Shown here: one piece after another, positions 2,734-57,893 of the stretch
Numbering within the stretch: the first letter of the stretch is position 1
Layout: each line of letters opens with the position of its first letter
DNA from: Fibrobacter succinogenes
GTDB taxonomy: Bacteria > Fibrobacterota > Fibrobacteria > Fibrobacterales > Fibrobacteraceae
DNA: 64,000 nucleotides
Assembly: GCA_902791475.1 (NCBI GenBank)
Contig: CADAWC010000016.1
Coordinates: 62,001-126,000, forward strand
Direction of reading: 5' to 3'
Position numbers and translations under genes: made by a program
Notes under the pieces: model-generated
Seen by the model: the letters and a program-made list of their open reading frames with translations, nothing else
Told to the model about the DNA's origin: nothing
The model's database searches: none

Positions 2734-4446
2734 TTATTTCGGCCAGTAGTCTGTCGGCTTTTGATTCAAATAAATGAGCCTAGCCCATTCACCGCTTTGC
2801 GCTTTATTCATAAAGTAAAGTTCATCGAGCTTGCCCTTGAGAACGCGGTCAATCTTTCCACTTGACTGCTTGCGTGCGCCAATGACAAACGGCCCATCCG
2901 AGATTCGCTTATCACTAGTCTTGTTGATGCTAACCGAGACTTTTTCGAGCTTGCCATTCCTGTAAATCGCCGTCGAATCACCCGATTTTACCACAGTCAA
3001 GTGAACCCATTGCTTGTAATCTATTTCTGGAGCCGTTGCAATATTTGCTGTATACCAATGATCCGGATTCGTCTCGTCCATTTCCTTGAACATCCAGCTT
3101 GAGCTATCGCTATCGCGAGCCTGGTACTTGAAATGGTATTCCGATTCAGACTTGCCCCAGATGAAACGCGATGTCGATGTGTCTTCGACATTCACCCAGA
3201 ACGACGCCGTAAAACGAGAAGTATCCGTCAGTGCAAAGGCGCGGTCATCGGCCGTCCCCCCAACTTCAATAACAGAAGATTTCCCGTTAAAGACAAACGC
3301 GCCGCCAATAATTCCATCACCCGTAGTAACATCCGTTACACGTCCCTTGAACGAATTATCGCCCGCCGTAACGACGCTAGAATCCAGGAATTCCCGTTCA
3401 TCAAAATTCCAGGCCGCCACAAAGCCATCCGTGAAAGAGAACGGGTCTACGGAGTTCGCAGCACCTGAGCGCGCCCCATTCCAAGCGAAAACGAGCTTTT
3501 GCATTTCGCGTTGCGGATAAAGCGTCGACAAACGAACCCACAGTCCTGTCGGAACAGAATCCCTGTCATAAACGACCTTGAAAGTCGCCCAATCCGAAGC
3601 CGGTTCCAAATAAACTTTCATCGCAAAAATATTTTTGACAAGCGATTCATGGTCATCCGCATTCAGGTCGCTCAAACGAATATACAGCGGGAATCCCTCG
3701 ATAGTGTCATGCAGGTCAATACCCGAAGCAGCCGTGTTGAGCGGGATTTCCAAAATGTGGAGCGATTCATCGTAGAAAAATTCCTGAACGGCATCCGTAT
3801 TTTCAACAAGAACAGCCTTGATGCTATTGGCCCCCTCCGAAGTACTCACTTGTACCGAATCATAGTACGATGCCGGCACACCGGTAAAAGTCGCATACTT
3901 TCCCGCTTCATCCTCCGCAATCTTCGCAGTTGCCTTGTATGTCGAACCGACAATAGAAACACTCGCCAACGAGTCCTTGGAGTCTTGCAAATAAATCTTG
4001 ATATCGTGACTTTGATCCAATCCCAAACTGATAGTTTGCGCAGCATCCGTCGCAATTTTCAGGCCCGACTCACGAAGCGCAAAAGACCCGCCATCCGACA
4101 TTTCATAAAACGCTTCCAAGTTGTAAACGCCATCAGGCAAGTTATCAAATGCAAAATGCCCTGCCGAATCCGCAGTCGTCGCATAGTACGATGTGCTATC
4201 TTCTTTTGCAGGGTCGTAATCCATCGGCACGCAGTAAACTCGAGCAAACGCCGCAGTTTTCGCAACACCTTGCGAACCGTCCACAAACGCAAGCGTCCCC
4301 ATCAATTCCGGGGAACCGACTTCAGAGCTGTTCCCACCCGCCACCTTATTGTCGGAGCAAGATACGAGGAAAACCATTGCAAGCAACGCCTGCAACGCGA
4401 ACAATGCAGAAACCGCCGATTTAGCCAATCGAGTATTTCGTTTCAT
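2734..4446 (-). CDS. Lipoprotein with carboxypeptidase-regulatory-like, DUF2341-like and LamG-like domains
   Basis: The 570-residue protein begins with a lipoprotein signal peptide ending in FLVSC, with the lipidated cysteine at residue 30. Residues about 48-125 look like a carboxypeptidase-regulatory-like beta-sandwich (DSAGHFAFDNLPDGVYNLEA). A middle segment (about 255-335) has the LWVRL...KLVFAWNG pattern of DUF2341 domains. The last 220 residues form a LamG/concanavalin-like jelly roll (FTASFWVNVED; WVHLTVVKSGDSTAIYRNGK; GKLDELYFMNKA). LamG folds commonly bind sugars or matrix polymers, so a surface role is plausible, but no ligand can be assigned. It lies 7 bp behind the TIGR02147 gene at 4454-5341 on the same strand, so the two probably share one transcript. 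The same gene order recurs at 55585-57893. Confidence 0.85.
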   Translation of the reverse strand: MKRNTRLAKSAVSALFALQALLAMVFLVSCSDNKVAGGNSSEVGSPELMGTLAFVDGSQGVAKTAAFARVYCVPMDYDPAKEDSTSYYATTADSAGHFAFDNLPDGVYNLEAFYEMSDGGSFALRESGLKIATDAAQTISLGLDQSHDIKIYLQDSKDSLASVSIVGSTYKATAKIAEDEAGKYATFTGVPASYYDSVQVSTSEGANSIKAVLVENTDAVQEFFYDESLHILEIPLNTAASGIDLHDTIEGFPLYIRLSDLNADDHESLVKNIFAMKVYLEPASDWATFKVVYDRDSVPTGLWVRLSTLYPQREMQKLVFAWNGARSGAANSVDPFSFTDGFVAAWNFDEREFLDSSVVTAGDNSFKGRVTDVTTGDGIIGGAFVFNGKSSVIEVGGTADDRAFALTDTSRFTASFWVNVEDTSTSRFIWGKSESEYHFKYQARDSDSSSWMFKEMDETNPDHWYTANIATAPEIDYKQWVHLTVVKSGDSTAIYRNGKLEKVSVSINKTSDKRISDGPFVIGARKQSSGKIDRVLKGKLDELYFMNKAQSGEWARLIYLNQKPTDYWPK

Positions 4447-4453
4447 TGCATCC

Positions 4454-5341
4454 TCACTTGGACAACGGGAAAATCTGGATATTCATCTGGAAAACGCGGC
4501 CACCGTCCTCGTCCTCATTAGCAATCATAGAAATTTTTTTGCGGAACTCATTGATACACTTGACAATTTTCTTGTAAGATGCCTCCGAAATGCCAAGCGT
4601 CACACTGCTGAGGTTACGTTCGCTGCCAGGAATCGTCGAAATGGACTCCTTCGCCAAATCAATAAATTCCTTGTGGTAATTGATAAACGCCTGCTGGATG
4701 ACCTTGTCACCCGTGCTAATCGCCGGATTGTTCAAAACCCAGTTGCCCTTGGCGTCCTTCTTGATTAGCCCAACACGTTCCAGCAAATCCACCGCCTGCC
4801 GCGCCTGCTCTCCAGAAATCGGCGGCATCAAGCGCGCCCCGAGAGCATCGTAGTCACCATCAAAACCAATCATCCCGATAATCGAGCGGATCGCGGAATA
4901 GTACCAGTGCGAATAAACTTCATACTGGTATGCGCGGGTCAAAAGCATCTGCTGCGTGAAACGGTAAGTCGCCGTGATTTCTTCCATGCGCTTCTTGTAG
5001 TTTTCACGCTCATCACCGTTGGACGCCTGGCAGAACAGCACCATCGCCTCGAAATATGCAGCCTCGCTTTCATCGAATTGCAAGCCGGCGACAATCTTTG
5101 CAATACTTGCCGGAGTGAGGCTCTTTTCACCCTTCATCACACGCGAAATAAAATCCTTGGACGAAAATCCAAGCTTGTCCGAGAAACTCCGCAGCGAATA
5201 ACGACGGTTCAAGGCTTGCGCACACTCAAAATAATGCCGCAAATAAGCGCGGTAATCATCAAATTCAAAAACCGACATGCGCTTCGGAGGGATTGAACCG
5301 AGACGCTCTTCAGACTGCAATTTTTCTGCACTGGATTTCAT
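4454..5341 (-). CDS. TIGR02147/DUF4423-type putative transcriptional regulator
   Basis: A 295-residue protein of a family I know mainly as a Fibrobacter paralogous set. Residues about 22-90 contain a helix-turn-helix-like stretch (RSFSDKLGFSSKDFISRVMKG, then LTPASIAKIV), followed by the family core with YEVYSHWYYSAIRS and a second winged-helix-like segment (QARQAVDLLERVGLIKKD). The C-terminus has the family signature SSVTLGISEASYKKI...FRKKI. DNA binding is inferred from the HTH pattern. No Shine-Dalgarno site precedes the ATG; a TATATT box lies 8 nt upstream, so the message may be leaderless. A second start, MSVFEF, is 21 codons downstream. It is the probable first gene of a two-gene operon with the lipoprotein. 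Confidence 0.85.
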   Translation of the reverse strand: MKSSAEKLQSEERLGSIPPKRMSVFEFDDYRAYLRHYFECAQALNRRYSLRSFSDKLGFSSKDFISRVMKGEKSLTPASIAKIVAGLQFDESEAAYFEAMVLFCQASNGDERENYKKRMEEITATYRFTQQMLLTRAYQYEVYSHWYYSAIRSIIGMIGFDGDYDALGARLMPPISGEQARQAVDLLERVGLIKKDAKGNWVLNNPAISTGDKVIQQAFINYHKEFIDLAKESISTIPGSERNLSSVTLGISEASYKKIVKCINEFRKKISMIANEDEDGGRVFQMNIQIFPLSK

Positions 5342-5383
5342 ACTCTAAAAATATATTGTAAAGCCGATATTCGGTAAAAATGC
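5342..5383 (-). promoter_or_regulatory. Putative promoter of the TIGR02147-lipoprotein operon
   Basis: On the minus strand TATATT (5355-5350) is separated from the ATG at 5341 by 8 nt, with an overlapping TACAAT at 5360-5355. Slightly further upstream is the palindrome CCGAATATCGG (5364-5374), which could be an operator. No convincing -35 hexamer is visible, so activator dependence is possible. Confidence 0.4.
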
Positions 5384-5582
5384 CCTAAAAACAGCCTCAA
5401 AATCGTTGTCTACCGAGGACGCTTTGTTCCCACGACACCTGTTTTCCCTCGACATTTAGGGCACACACATCTATCTTTATAAAAAAAGGAATTTTGCTCT
5501 GGCATCGGATTGAGCTATAAAAGCCCCACACCAAAACAAGCTCTAGCGGTGCTACGAGAACAGGTCCATCTCTCAAACACGC

Positions 5583-5606
5583 AGGGAACGACTCAGGTCG
5601 TTCCCT
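5583..5606. terminator. Hairpin just downstream of the SGNH esterase gene
   Basis: GGGAACGAC and GTCGTTCCC form a perfect 9-bp stem with a short loop, 8 bp past the stop codon of the gene at 5615. The T-rich side (TTTTCAGTTTT) is on the plus strand, so as a minus-strand terminator it lacks a strong U-tract; it may instead protect the 3' end. Between here and 5384 I see no gene. Confidence 0.45.
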
Positions 5607-5614
5607 TTTCAGTT

Positions 5615-6661
5615 TTAGCGTTTGATGTAGACTTTCTGGTGCGAAGAGCCGCGAGCGTTCAGAGCACGCCCCTGAGCATCAAAGTGGTGCACCGATTTAG
5701 CCATGTTCGCAGCTCCCGCCGAATTTTTGCGAGCTACTCGAGCACCCGGCTTCAAGGCAGTCGTCTTTTCGACTTTCAAAGGCGCAGTCACAATCCGCGA
5801 AAGCGTCCTTTCGTCCACCTTCACAGAAACCTTGTACTCGCCATCACCCGAAATAGCAAGCGTTTCAAGCGTTTCGCCATCAAGCAGTTTCCCGTCTTTG
5901 TACCACTGGTAACCAAAACCCTTCGGAGCCTTGAGCATCGAGCCGTCTTGCGTTACACGCAACGTATCCATCTGCAAATGGGCATACACAATTTCTGCCA
6001 AGTGCTTTGCGCCCTCGACAGACGGATGTACCATATCTTCCAAATACCAGCTCGGATTTTCAAGGGCGCTAAAACGAGAATGCAAGTCAATCACGTTCAC
6101 ACCTTTTTCGAGCCCAGCCCGCAAAATTGCCGGATTCACACGATTCACGACCGCCGTATCAAGAATATTCCATTCTACGTTGTTCACATAAGGTGCCAAG
6201 CAAATAAAGACATGCGGTTTCGATTTCACCTGGAACGTGTCAATCAACGCCTCAAAATCCGCCGTAATCGCAGAGTCCACCGCAGCATCCTGCGCCGGAG
6301 TATTCCAAGTCGTGTACGATTTCGAATCGTTCGTACCCAACTCGATGATAACCGTATCCGCAGCAAATTCAATCGCCGGCGCAAAGCGGTAACCCTTCCA
6401 GTACGAAGCCTGATCATCCTTGCGAACAGTAAGCCCGCTCACGCCAAAATTCTCGACCGTATCGTTCGGTGCATTTTCGCGCAGCATTCCCTGCAAATGA
6501 TGCGGATAACTCGTCTGGTCCGGCCAGGACTCAATCCCGTAACCATACGTAATGCTATTGCCAACGCAAGCGACCTTACCCGCCGCAAACGCCGATGCCA
6601 CCATAGCTGACGACACAGCAGCCGCAGCCAAAACTATCTTCCCAAACATATTCATAACCAT
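5615..6661 (-). CDS. Secreted SGNH/GDSL-family esterase with Ig-like domain and sorting-type tail
   Basis: The protein starts with a cleavable signal peptide ending ASAFAA (about residue 27). SGNH blocks follow in order: block I CVGNSITYG with nucleophile Ser36, block II glycine in NFGVSG, block III GTND (Asn111) and block V DMVHP with Asp209 and His212. Residues about 240-290 look Ig-like (YQWYKDGKLLDG). The C-terminus, FDAQGRALNARGSS..VYIKR, resembles type IX-like sorting tails seen on exported Fibrobacter proteins; that is an inference. SGNH proteins of this form deacetylate polysaccharides or cleave lipids, and the substrate here is unknown. The first ATG is preferred because a TATATT box lies exactly 6 nt before it. 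The gene starts 39 bp beyond the small gene at 6701-6886. Confidence 0.85.
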   Translation of the reverse strand: MVMNMFGKIVLAAAAVSSAMVASAFAAGKVACVGNSITYGYGIESWPDQTSYPHHLQGMLRENAPNDTVENFGVSGLTVRKDDQASYWKGYRFAPAIEFAADTVIIELGTNDSKSYTTWNTPAQDAAVDSAITADFEALIDTFQVKSKPHVFICLAPYVNNVEWNILDTAVVNRVNPAILRAGLEKGVNVIDLHSRFSALENPSWYLEDMVHPSVEGAKHLAEIVYAHLQMDTLRVTQDGSMLKAPKGFGYQWYKDGKLLDGETLETLAISGDGEYKVSVKVDERTLSRIVTAPLKVEKTTALKPGARVARKNSAGAANMAKSVHHFDAQGRALNARGSSHQKVYIKR

Positions 6662-55523: not shown

Positions 55524-55566
55524 TTTTGAGTGTATTCTCAAAAAATGTTCTCACCTTAGTTCTCAC
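55524..55566 (+). promoter_or_regulatory. Iteron-like TTCTCA sites before the second TIGR02147 gene
   Basis: TTCTCA occurs at 55535, 55548 and 55560 (steps of 13 and 12 bp); the last two read TTCTCAC. TTTTGAG/CTCAAAA (55524-55543) is an inverted pair over the first. This region occupies the expected -35 area, so it could bind the encoded regulator. Confidence 0.5.
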
Positions 55567-55572
55567 AAATAT

Positions 55573-55584
55573 TATATTAAGCAC
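55573..55584 (+). promoter_or_regulatory. TATATT box 6 nt before a GTG start
   Basis: TATATT (55573-55578), AAGCAC, then GTG at 55585. There is no Shine-Dalgarno site. Compatible with leaderless expression. Confidence 0.45.
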
Positions 55585-56424
55585 GTGGAAAACTATATCG
55601 ACATTTACCAATTTACGCACTTCCGCAAGTACTTGGAAGAATACCAGGCGGCCAGAGTCCAGTCCGACCCGGAATTCACCCGTACCGGAATCTGCAATAT
55701 GCTCGGCCTCCCCAAGACGCGCAGCTACTTTGCCGATGTTCTCAGAGGGAAAAAGGTCAGCCCCCGCATGACAGCCAAGTTTATCGAAGTCCTCGGCCTC
55801 AACAAGAAGGCCGCCAAGTACTTCGAGACCATGGTGAAGCTCGACCAGGCAAAAACCGAAACCGCCCGTAGCGCCGCCATGGAAGAACTCCTGCACCTGC
55901 ACCCGAATCCGCAGCATATCCTCGATTCGAACACCTACGAATACTATAACCATTGGTACCATAGCGCAATGTTTGCTATTCTTGATGCTATGGACGTTAC
56001 AGATGACTTGACACCGGTGCAAAAGAGAATCTTCCCGAAAATTCCACTCGGAAAGATTAAGGACTCGTTGTCTCTTTTAGAAAAGCTGGGCCTCGCCCGC
56101 AAGAACGAATCTGGTTTCTGGAAGCCGACCAAGGAATCCATCTCCAGCGGTCCGTACAACAATGCGGAACTCATCAAGCAGTACCAGCTGCAATGTTTTG
56201 AACTTTCGAAGCAGGCGCTCATCACGCGCCCCAAGATGCCGACTGTCATGAGCACGCTCACGTTCAGCATCTCGAACAACGCCTACAAGAAACTTGAATC
56301 CGAACTCCAGGAATTCAAGGCGAAGGCAAGACGCATCATCAGCGAAGATAACGAAAAGGCAAACGGCGTTTACCAGATGAACCTGCACTTGTTCTCTAAC
56401 CTCGATCCGGAGGTTAAGGCATGA
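55585..56424 (+). CDS. TIGR02147/DUF4423-type putative regulator (second copy)
   Basis: A 279-residue paralogue of the protein at 4454-5341, with GTG start. The N-terminal HTH-like part is FTRTGICNMLGLPKTRSYFADVLRG and then SPRMTAKFIEVLGL. The shared core includes YEYYNHWYHSAMFAI, and the C-terminal signature is MSTLTFSISNNAYKKL...QEFKAKARRI. DNA binding is inferred. The downstream lipoprotein begins inside the last codons of this gene (ATGA), so the two are translationally coupled. Together with 2734-5341 this shows a repeated regulator-lipoprotein module. Confidence 0.87.
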   Translation: MENYIDIYQFTHFRKYLEEYQAARVQSDPEFTRTGICNMLGLPKTRSYFADVLRGKKVSPRMTAKFIEVLGLNKKAAKYFETMVKLDQAKTETARSAAMEELLHLHPNPQHILDSNTYEYYNHWYHSAMFAILDAMDVTDDLTPVQKRIFPKIPLGKIKDSLSLLEKLGLARKNESGFWKPTKESISSGPYNNAELIKQYQLQCFELSKQALITRPKMPTVMSTLTFSISNNAYKKLESELQEFKAKARRIISEDNEKANGVYQMNLHLFSNLDPEVKA

Positions 56425-57893
56425 TGAACTTTAAGATTTTAAATACAGCAGGGATTTTTGCCCTCGCATCGATTTTCTCCGCCTGTACCGACGAGAACCA
56501 TGCCGGCGTGCTCACGGAAACTGAATCCGGCACGACCATCGCAAGCATCGTCATCGACGGAAGTGGATCCCCGGTCGTAAGCGCAAGAGTAAGCCTACTT
56601 TCGGCAAACCACGTCGCCACGCGCATGGCCCCCATCAAGACCGCCACGACGGACGAAAACGGCAAGTACACCATTGACAGCGTCGCTGCTGGCGAATACG
56701 CTTTGCAGATTAGTAATACGGAACACACACAGTCCGCCTACCAGACGCTCACAGTCAAAGACTCCAAGACCGACCTGCAGACGCTCAACGTCCCCGAAGC
56801 AAAGCTCGAAGAGAATGCAAGCCTTGAACTTGACCTCAGCACATACGATCTCGACAAGGGCGACACGCTCTGCATCACAGGTACGCTCAACTGCACCGCA
56901 GTCAGCGAAAGCGACCTCAAGTCGGGAACCGTCAAGCTCGATGAAATTCCGCCTGCAGAATTCACGAACATCATCCTCATCCGAGGCGCCGGTCGCGACA
57001 CCTCGACGCGCAACGTCAAGTGGGACTTTGTCCCTGGCGAAAAGCTCGAAGTCTCTTCAGAATTCGTAACGGTCACCGTTCCGGAAGAAGCCTTGAGCGC
57101 CGCAAAGAAGCTGAACGGCAAGAAGACTCTTGAATCCATGATTGTTCCGGTAACGATCCCCACGAAGGTCAAGAACCCGGTTCTCATTGACAACAACGGA
57201 GACTCGCTCGCAGTCTTTAAAGCCGAAAACGATGCGGACTCGTCGCTTTACTTCACGGCAATTCCAAGCATTGACGCAGGTACATACAAATTCACAGTCA
57301 CATCAAGCGAATCCGTTTACAAGACTTCGGAAATTTCCAGAGTGTTTGCCGAATCCAAATCAGGTTTGTCCGTCACCGAAGGTGATTTCATGAATACATT
57401 CATCACGGATACGACAAGCAATAGCCTCGGCATTAGCTTCTGGATTGAAGAAGACGGCAGCAAAATCGCAGAAGGCGACTCTTTGATTATTGATTCAAAA
57501 GAAAACGATGTCACATACCGTCTGAGGGTAGGTGAAAAGCCTGAGCAGCTCTGCACCAACTTCTACAGGAGAGTCTCAAAAGACTCGACGTATACGGATT
57601 CGTTCCCTGAACTCGGAAACTCTTACTGCCACAATGTCTTGGACGGGGAACGCCATCACTACGCCTTGTACATCAAGGCAAACCATGTCGTTATCGCCAT
57701 TGACGGAAAGACCGTCGAAGACACCAAGATGAAAAACGCCTTCATCATATTCCCGGGCTTCGTCACAGGAAACCACAAGCTCAAGAACCTGACCGTCTTC
57801 TCGCTCAAGCAATCCGCAATCGCCCAAAGCAACGACAGCGGCTGGGAACGCCTGCAAGCCTGGCTCTCCGCCTACTACATGATGCAGAAGTAA
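56421..57893 (+). CDS. Lipoprotein with carboxypeptidase-regulatory-like and LamG-like domains
   Basis: The 490-residue protein has a lipoprotein signal with box SIFSAC and lipidated Cys22. Residues about 40-110 form a carboxypeptidase-regulatory-like sandwich (VSARVSLLSANHVA; TDENGKYTIDSVAAGEYALQ). The middle is beta-rich without a clear family. Residues about 320-475 resemble a reduced LamG jelly roll (LGISFWIEEDGS; HHYALYIKANHVVIAIDGK). GGAGG lies 9 nt before ATG, inside the regulator gene. The architecture parallels the 2734-4446 lipoprotein, though sequence similarity is low apart from the layout. Confidence 0.82.
   Translation: MMNFKILNTAGIFALASIFSACTDENHAGVLTETESGTTIASIVIDGSGSPVVSARVSLLSANHVATRMAPIKTATTDENGKYTIDSVAAGEYALQISNTEHTQSAYQTLTVKDSKTDLQTLNVPEAKLEENASLELDLSTYDLDKGDTLCITGTLNCTAVSESDLKSGTVKLDEIPPAEFTNIILIRGAGRDTSTRNVKWDFVPGEKLEVSSEFVTVTVPEEALSAAKKLNGKKTLESMIVPVTIPTKVKNPVLIDNNGDSLAVFKAENDADSSLYFTAIPSIDAGTYKFTVTSSESVYKTSEISRVFAESKSGLSVTEGDFMNTFITDTTSNSLGISFWIEEDGSKIAEGDSLIIDSKENDVTYRLRVGEKPEQLCTNFYRRVSKDSTYTDSFPELGNSYCHNVLDGERHHYALYIKANHVVIAIDGKTVEDTKMKNAFIIFPGFVTGNHKLKNLTVFSLKQSAIAQSNDSGWERLQAWLSAYYMMQK

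Follow-up and report, generated by a model that had tools for sequence, protein, structure and literature searches.

The window analyzed here is a 64,000-nucleotide stretch of Fibrobacter succinogenes DNA (G000:C16:62001-126000) from a home genome, G000, of 3.86 Mb in 97 contigs. It contains two gene pairs, modules 1 and 2, in each of which a gene for a TIGR02147/DUF4423 regulator is followed by a gene for a lipoprotein (Table 1). The pair at 2734-5341 is genuine and represents one copy of a two-gene module that occurs throughout the phylum Fibrobacterota. The module lipoproteins share a short tag behind the lipidated cysteine, and in the main clade of modules a common upstream DNA element tracks the recognition helix of the regulator. 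The favored reading, with a probability of about 0.6, is that the modules encode individually autoregulated envelope or glycan-binding lipoproteins whose class-specific tag serves sorting or presentation.

The home genome contained 35 TIGR02147/DUF4423 genes, every one above the curated TIGR02147 cut-off. A lipoprotein gene lay directly next to 34 of them, and two of these partners were damaged. The partner of the regulator at C74:5047 had a recognizable lipoprotein start and was frameshifted; that of the regulator at C1:3446 was a truncated stump (L036:3422-4390) whose sequence, MNYSKFSGLVACKMAMLLAFI, matched the start of a C74 lipoprotein. In 32 of the 35 cases, the partner had an intact lipobox and started −14 to +29 bp from the regulator stop. 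Base rates were taken from 446 kb of home-genome DNA, and a strict pairing rule was applied with the identical criterion to TIGR02147 genes and to all other genes tested. A lipoprotein start followed 30 of the 35 TIGR02147 genes and 14 of 284 others (Fisher p about 2e-26). Since at least three of the 14 background cases were module lipoproteins themselves, the background rate was overstated.

The family was present in 41 of the 41 Fibrobacterota genomes searched, with 2 to at least 46 copies each. Outside the home genome, an automatic test found lipoprotein pairing in at least 109 of 118 loci, and several of the unpaired loci resembled lipoprotein pairs by eye. The gap in the paired loci was exactly −4 bp in 43% and between −14 and +20 bp in 93%. 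The first-pass annotation had named adjacency no more frequent than expected as the finding that would speak against a repeated pairing; adjacency was far above expectation in the home genome and elsewhere. A collection scan returned records of Fibrobacterota type only, with relatives named as Raymondbacteria, Chitinispirillaceae, and Chitinivibrionales; a second alignment contained no segment of sufficient conservation for such a scan. No TIGR02147 gene was found on plasmids with a Raymondbacteria member as query, and none was found in phages with a window member as query. The family had been called lineage-specific, which does not hold strictly: a DUF4423 protein, Bd3700, is reported from Bdellovibrio (PMC12546842).

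The remaining home regulator, C27:7001, was an apparent orphan with no gene after it on its own strand. It was divergent from an operon in which the gene for a secreted protein of 791 aa is joined by one for a class lipoprotein, a relative of lipoprotein 1. In the species G004, the equivalent regulator (C6:162779-163594, − strand) was directly divergent from a homologue of this lipoprotein (C6:163778, + strand). The 791-aa neighbor had been taken for a pectate lyase by appearance, but this label was dropped, as its only Pfam match was a Big_7 Ig domain. At the orphan locus as a whole (L050:5160-12229), two secreted flanking proteins were seen, with an unconfirmed look of right-handed beta-helix polysaccharide lyases, and the class lipoprotein lay on the divergent strand.

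Regulator 1 matched TIGR02147 with 374 bits (E 3.9e-112, cut-off 50) and DUF4423 with 112.6 bits (cut-off 30); regulator 2 reached 284 and 92.4 bits against the same cut-offs. An HTH_3 match in regulator 1 was below the Pfam cut-off (13.6 vs 23). The N-terminus of the family profile gave weak matches to XRE-type helix-turn-helix (HTH) chains (3kxa, 3vk0, and C.BclI, 2b5a), and its DUF4423 part gave weak matches to winged-helix chains of the PhiH1 repressor and FadR. The AlphaFold model of regulator 1 had a mean predicted local distance difference test score (pLDDT) of 85, with the HTH part above 92. The HTH domain of the model was matched by Foldseek to C.BclI and NHTF with probabilities of 0.97-0.99, and the remaining part was matched weakly to the MarR family and T4 MotA. 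Judged by fold, the regulators appear to carry two DNA-binding-like domains, an XRE-like HTH and a winged-helix-like DUF4423 domain.

The partner lipoproteins varied widely. Signal peptides and lipobox cysteines were assigned by a rule-based scan and by sequence reading. In an alignment of 32 partners, the average column identity was 10%, and the sole invariant column was the lipidated cysteine. LamG bodies were found by Pfam in lipoprotein 1, in the C22 partner, and in the orphan's partner, with the C70 partner below the cut-off. Other body types were CBM4_9 (CBM4/9), pectate lyase, FISUMP, and carboxypeptidase-regulatory-like. The Fibrobacter FISUMP family (TIGR02145) was represented by three partners and was one of several body types.

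The tag had the consensus VAGxxxExxNxIA in Fibrobacter and xAG[GT]xx[ED]xxN across the phylum. A home-genome tag profile gave 30 matches, and all 27 matches with E<0.01 were linked to TIGR02147: 26 were direct partners, and C9:49512 was the next gene of the same operon. The three weak matches were the orphan's lipoprotein (C27:10616), a direct partner (C28:27670), and an unlinked protein (C11:84072) with E 0.59, which is chance level. A phylum-wide profile gave 23 matches in G032 and 8 in G040. All of them lay immediately behind a TIGR02147 gene, and seven were absent from the training alignment. The two profiles together gave eight linked matches from outside their training sets in the home genome, G032, and G040. 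At the sensitivity of these profiles, the tag is exclusive to TIGR02147-linked lipoproteins in the three genomes.

Across 20 lipoprotein 1 relatives, whose overall identity went as low as 23%, 12 of 21 tag positions were invariant, compared with 44 of 549 positions elsewhere. The tag segment in the model of lipoprotein 1 was unstructured (pLDDT 24-37). The tag can be read as a recognition motif, because the constraint is on the protein and lies in a segment without a predicted fold. An origin of the tag at the level of DNA or RNA was disfavored, as synonymous codons at the conserved positions followed the usage in the rest of the protein in 17 members fitting the pattern. The consensus of the lipoprotein export signal (LES) of Bacteroidetes is acidic and lies directly after the cysteine. 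Read by eye against it, the residues after the cysteine were acidic (CSDD) in many home members but not in G032 members such as CLFGPVAG.

Good sigma-70-like promoters were present upstream of many modules, and in some of these the start codon followed the -10 box by only 6-9 bp. The sequence AATTTTGTATCATT stood directly before the -35 box in several modules. A 14-bp position weight matrix (PWM) was built from 14 module sites and scanned over the same 446 kb. The top six hits were all upstream of TIGR02147 genes, as were eight of the top nine, in the same orientation. The remaining hit of the nine (L048:7676, 20.3 bits, opposite strand) was the second arm of an inverted repeat, AATTTTGTATCATT-N12-AATGATACAAAATA, in the promoter of the C28:27821 module. 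The tenth hit (L042, 17.7 bits) was away from any regulator, and of the 215 hits that reached 9 bits, only 26 were near regulators. Most of these top-scoring sites had served to build the matrix, and the weight therefore falls on the independent tests. Searching the whole home genome for exact copies of TTTTGTATCAT gave 11 sites, eight of them in module promoters, compared with one for the reversed control. Of the other three, one was inside a gene and two were near unrelated genes.

In G004, which was out of sample, the element (PWM score of at least 12) was present in 8 of 12 modules with the helix core [LIM][KQ][LMV]VC and in 0 of 16 others. In the home genome, where every module was scored without its own site, it was present in 8 of 12 helix-core modules and 1 of 23 others. 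The pooled counts were 16 of 24 and 1 of 39, with p 3e-8, a value that is optimistic because the helix class was set after the sequences had been seen. The element was present in 1 of 10 modules with an LKY[VA][SC] helix. An element that tracks the recognition helix is what one expects to see if a regulator binds its own promoter, and autoregulation in the LK[LMV]VC-helix clade is well supported by this comparison. The earlier proposal that each regulator controls its own lipoprotein is upheld, computationally, for the main clade, where the element tracks the helix, and for the orphan, whose divergent layout is kept in G004.

Two further observations concern upstream stretches. Modules of the LKYVS class (promoters in L036 and L037) had a different common stretch, ATTGTAAAAACTATTGAC-like, which is perhaps their own candidate operator. 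In another family, one module (L164, G032) had an LKLVC-like recognition helix, SSPNFLQMVIQGK, and an upstream element, GATTTTGTATAATT.

Regulator similarity and body similarity were correlated across modules (Mantel r 0.38, p 0.0002), and regulators 78% identical may carry bodies of similarity only 0.1. Because of this correlation and contrast, the modules are considered to duplicate as units while their bodies diverge fast. In L037 (G000:C74:1-16000), three TIGR02147-lipoprotein modules stood in tandem, with one lipoprotein frameshifted and one split; unless it is an assembly error, the array suggests ongoing duplication and decay. Extra lipoprotein genes were seen downstream in some modules (L052:9467-11009; L056:34-4116); one was tagged and two had serine-rich linkers instead.

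According to the favored reading, each module would be a self-contained operon, usually translationally coupled. The first gene would encode a one-component DNA-binding regulator that probably binds just upstream of, or across, its own -35 box and sets expression of both module genes; close paralogs with one common element may cross-regulate. The element lay upstream of -35 in most modules and as an inverted repeat across -35 in one, so repressor and activator were not distinguished by position. Autorepression relieved by a cytoplasmic signal is favored, because the promoters are often good sigma-70 matches; the sign and the ligand are presumptive. The second gene would encode an envelope lipoprotein made of a signal peptide with lipobox, a short unstructured tag, and a variable body. 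It may be surface-exposed, and the body would be glycan-binding or pectin-active where recognizable. Most simply, the tag would be a recognition signal for sorting or presentation of this class alone. Modules would be copied as units, with bodies diversifying much faster than regulator or tag, and the outcome would be a repertoire of individually switched envelope proteins in each genome.

Several points weigh against this reading. The shared element was above threshold in no more than roughly one in four home modules, and the two window modules belong to other helix classes with weaker candidate sites of their own. The whole regulator had no Foldseek match at E<0.001 (best E 0.07), and many partner bodies had no Pfam match. 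Because the tag profiles had been built from linked lipoproteins, diverged tags on other proteins could escape them. A link to glycans is favored by the LamG, CBM4_9, and pectate lyase bodies and by the genes flanking the modules, which included CBM6, GDSL esterase, GH5, GH43, GH127, and pectic acid lyase (Pec_lyase) genes; these carbohydrate-enzyme flanks were counted without a background rate and are only suggestive.

One form of the favored reading takes the tag purely as a sorting or surface-presentation signal for a dedicated envelope machine, with ordinary one-component regulators that are unrelated to it. This is a tentative possibility. The tag lies soon after the lipidated cysteine, which is the site of known sorting and surface-export signals such as the LES of Bacteroidetes (PMC5080379). 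Alone, this form leaves the confinement of the tag to linked lipoproteins in three genomes unexplained.

That confinement would be explained more directly, and more so than by the favored reading, if, in the cytoplasm, the regulator recognized the tag at the N-terminus of a prolipoprotein not yet exported and precursor build-up altered transcription of the operon. A general sorting signal would not predict a tag found only on lipoproteins linked to one regulator family. The usual translational coupling of the two genes and the nature of the tag, a protein-level motif in a disordered segment, also fit such export-coupled autoregulation. Set against this, an exported tag is only briefly in the cytoplasm, and a class-specific envelope partner accounts for the same data. 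We know of no regulation tied to export flux in this way for lipoproteins, and this explanation is judged rather unlikely.

It is slightly less probable again that the regulators are switches among mutually exclusive lipoproteins through one operator, which would give envelope variation and not substrate-specific control. About 12 home modules have the element in common and recognition helices that are nearly identical, which points that way, as does the fast divergence of bodies behind similar regulators, but the element is not common to the other helix classes. A sensor role, in which the lipoprotein binds glycan outside and signals to its cytoplasmic regulator via other envelope proteins, is doubtful. 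Variable, partly lectin-like bodies that stand one-to-one with regulators would suit it, but by inspection the modules did not regularly include a membrane-spanning relay gene as a third component. Although these genomes are rich in lipoprotein genes, an accidental pairing of abundant lipoproteins and regulators is refuted by the strict-rule counts and by conservation through the phylum.

Table 1. Features of the two regulator-lipoprotein modules in the window
Feature	Position	Strand	Basis
Regulator 1, TIGR02147/DUF4423 protein, 295 aa	4454..5341	-	NCBIfam TIGR02147, Pfam DUF4423, open reading frame (ORF)
XRE-like helix-turn-helix, regulator 1 residues 47-90	5072..5203	-	Weak HTH_3, family profile, AlphaFold (AF2) model, Foldseek
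DUF4423 region with winged-helix-like part, regulator 1 residues 138-293	4463..4930	-	Pfam; weak profile and Foldseek matches
Lipoprotein 1, 570 aa, start 7 bp past regulator 1 stop	2734..4446	-	ORF, lipobox
Signal peptide and lipobox LVS-C30 of lipoprotein 1	4357..4446	-	Sequence
Class tag of lipoprotein 1, past lipidated cysteine: C30-SDNKVAGGNSSEVGSPELMG	4297..4359	-	Conservation, profile matches, model
LamG/concanavalin-like domain, lipoprotein 1 residues 405-552	2791..3234	-	Pfam Laminin_G_3; model match 5hon
Candidate module 1 promoter: -35 TTTACC 5373-5378, -10 TATATT 5350-5355	5350..5378	-	Promoter scan, conservation, sequence
Conserved upstream block CCTCGGTAGACAACGATTTTGAGGCTGTTTTT, candidate operator of module 1	5387..5418	-	Orthologous promoters of related species
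Regulator 2, TIGR02147, 279 aa, GTG start	55585..56424	+	TIGR02147 284 bits
Lipoprotein 2, 490 aa, start overlapping regulator 2 stop (ATGA)	56421..57893	+	ORF, lipobox, CarboxypepD_reg
Class tag of lipoprotein 2: CTDENHAGVLTETESGTTIA	56484..56543	+	Tag profile E 1e-6, but training-set member
Module 2 promoter region	55524..55575	+	Repeats, promoter scan, sequence

For module 1, the coordinates, strand, and gene order given by the first-pass annotation were borne out by the ORFs, the TIGR02147 match, and the lipobox LVSC. Of the three domains it had assigned to lipoprotein 1, the LamG domain stood (Laminin_G_3, 65 bits vs cut-off 27.6); the carboxypeptidase-regulatory-like domain was under the Pfam cut-off (18.5 bits vs 32.3), and no DUF2341 match was found by Pfam at E<0.1. 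A sister lipoprotein of the home genome carries DUF2341. The model of lipoprotein 1 was nearly all beta and of modest quality (pLDDT 63.5). Its C-terminal part resembled domain 4 of the GH43 arabinanase AbnA (5hon, target TM score 0.72, Foldseek on the model). Foldseek matches to clostridial neurotoxin binding domains reflect a widespread lectin-like jelly-roll fold and are not read as a relationship of lipoprotein 1 to toxins.

The module 1 promoter was conserved in related species, with its -10 box ending 8 bp ahead of the ATG. The interval 5342-5383, which had been singled out as the place for regulator binding, is mainly core promoter. The conserved block at 5387-5418, largely kept in the most distant orthologue, is the better candidate. 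Directly upstream of module 1 lay a gene for a GDSL esterase, a distant relative of the acetylxylan esterase AxeA1 (5615-6661, − strand), and an inverted repeat was found at 5583-5606 between this gene and the module.

The recurrence of the same order at 55585-57893 was confirmed as a regulator followed by a lipoprotein with a CarboxypepD_reg domain (46 bits, Pfam), and Pfam gave no LamG match in lipoprotein 2. Upstream of regulator 2 were an inverted repeat TTTTGAG/CTCAAAA (55524-55543), direct repeats GTTCTCAC (55547-55566), and a -10-like TATTAT (55570-55575); these repeats are so short that they can be chance. A sister TIGR02147 module of the module 2 subclade was located about 5 kb beyond the right end of the window (G000:C16:131365-132174, L040).

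The regulators clearly belong to a known family, TIGR02147 (Fsuc_second)/DUF4423, whose model is silent on the lipoprotein partner, the tag, and the binding site. TIGR02147 was unmentioned, and no description of the pairing, tag, or element was found, in the literature searched, which lacks most subscription journals. By analogy, the arrangement may be filed with regulators that have a dedicated partner, as in the XRE-DUF397 pairs of Streptomyces. According to two reports (PMC10364602, PMC6262351), these pairs are alike in having many paralogous XRE-type regulators, each with its own next partner gene. In Streptomyces the partner is a small DUF397 protein, whereas in Fibrobacter it is a large exported, tagged lipoprotein, and DUF397 was not among the Pfam hits of 32 partners at E<0.001. 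The LES (PMC5080379) likewise consists of a few conserved residues close behind the lipidated cysteine; the conserved part in Fibrobacterota (AG[GT]xx[ED]xxN) is further along and was seen on TIGR02147-linked proteins only. Sus-like systems of Bacteroidetes are similar in placing glycan-binding envelope lipoproteins under locus-by-locus control. Unlike them, the TIGR02147 module had, by inspection, no regular transporter, anti-sigma factor, or hybrid kinase.

In F. succinogenes S85, 40 of 49 quantified putative lipoproteins, some with carboxypeptidase-regulatory-like domains, were lowered on cellulose (PMC6851124). The S85 genome paper named transcriptional regulation of cellulase genes as an unanswered question, with few regulators nearby (PMC3079729). 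With about 35 regulators per genome, each beside a defined neighbor, and with the element and helix class of the main clade, direct experiments on DNA binding, targets, and the response to substrates become feasible. Regardless of body domain, all members of the lipoprotein class in a Fibrobacterota genome can be picked out simply by the tag. The tag also raises the question of what reads an exported motif that is found only beside one cytoplasmic regulator family. If the regulator itself were the reader, transcription of an envelope-protein repertoire would be tied to export flux.

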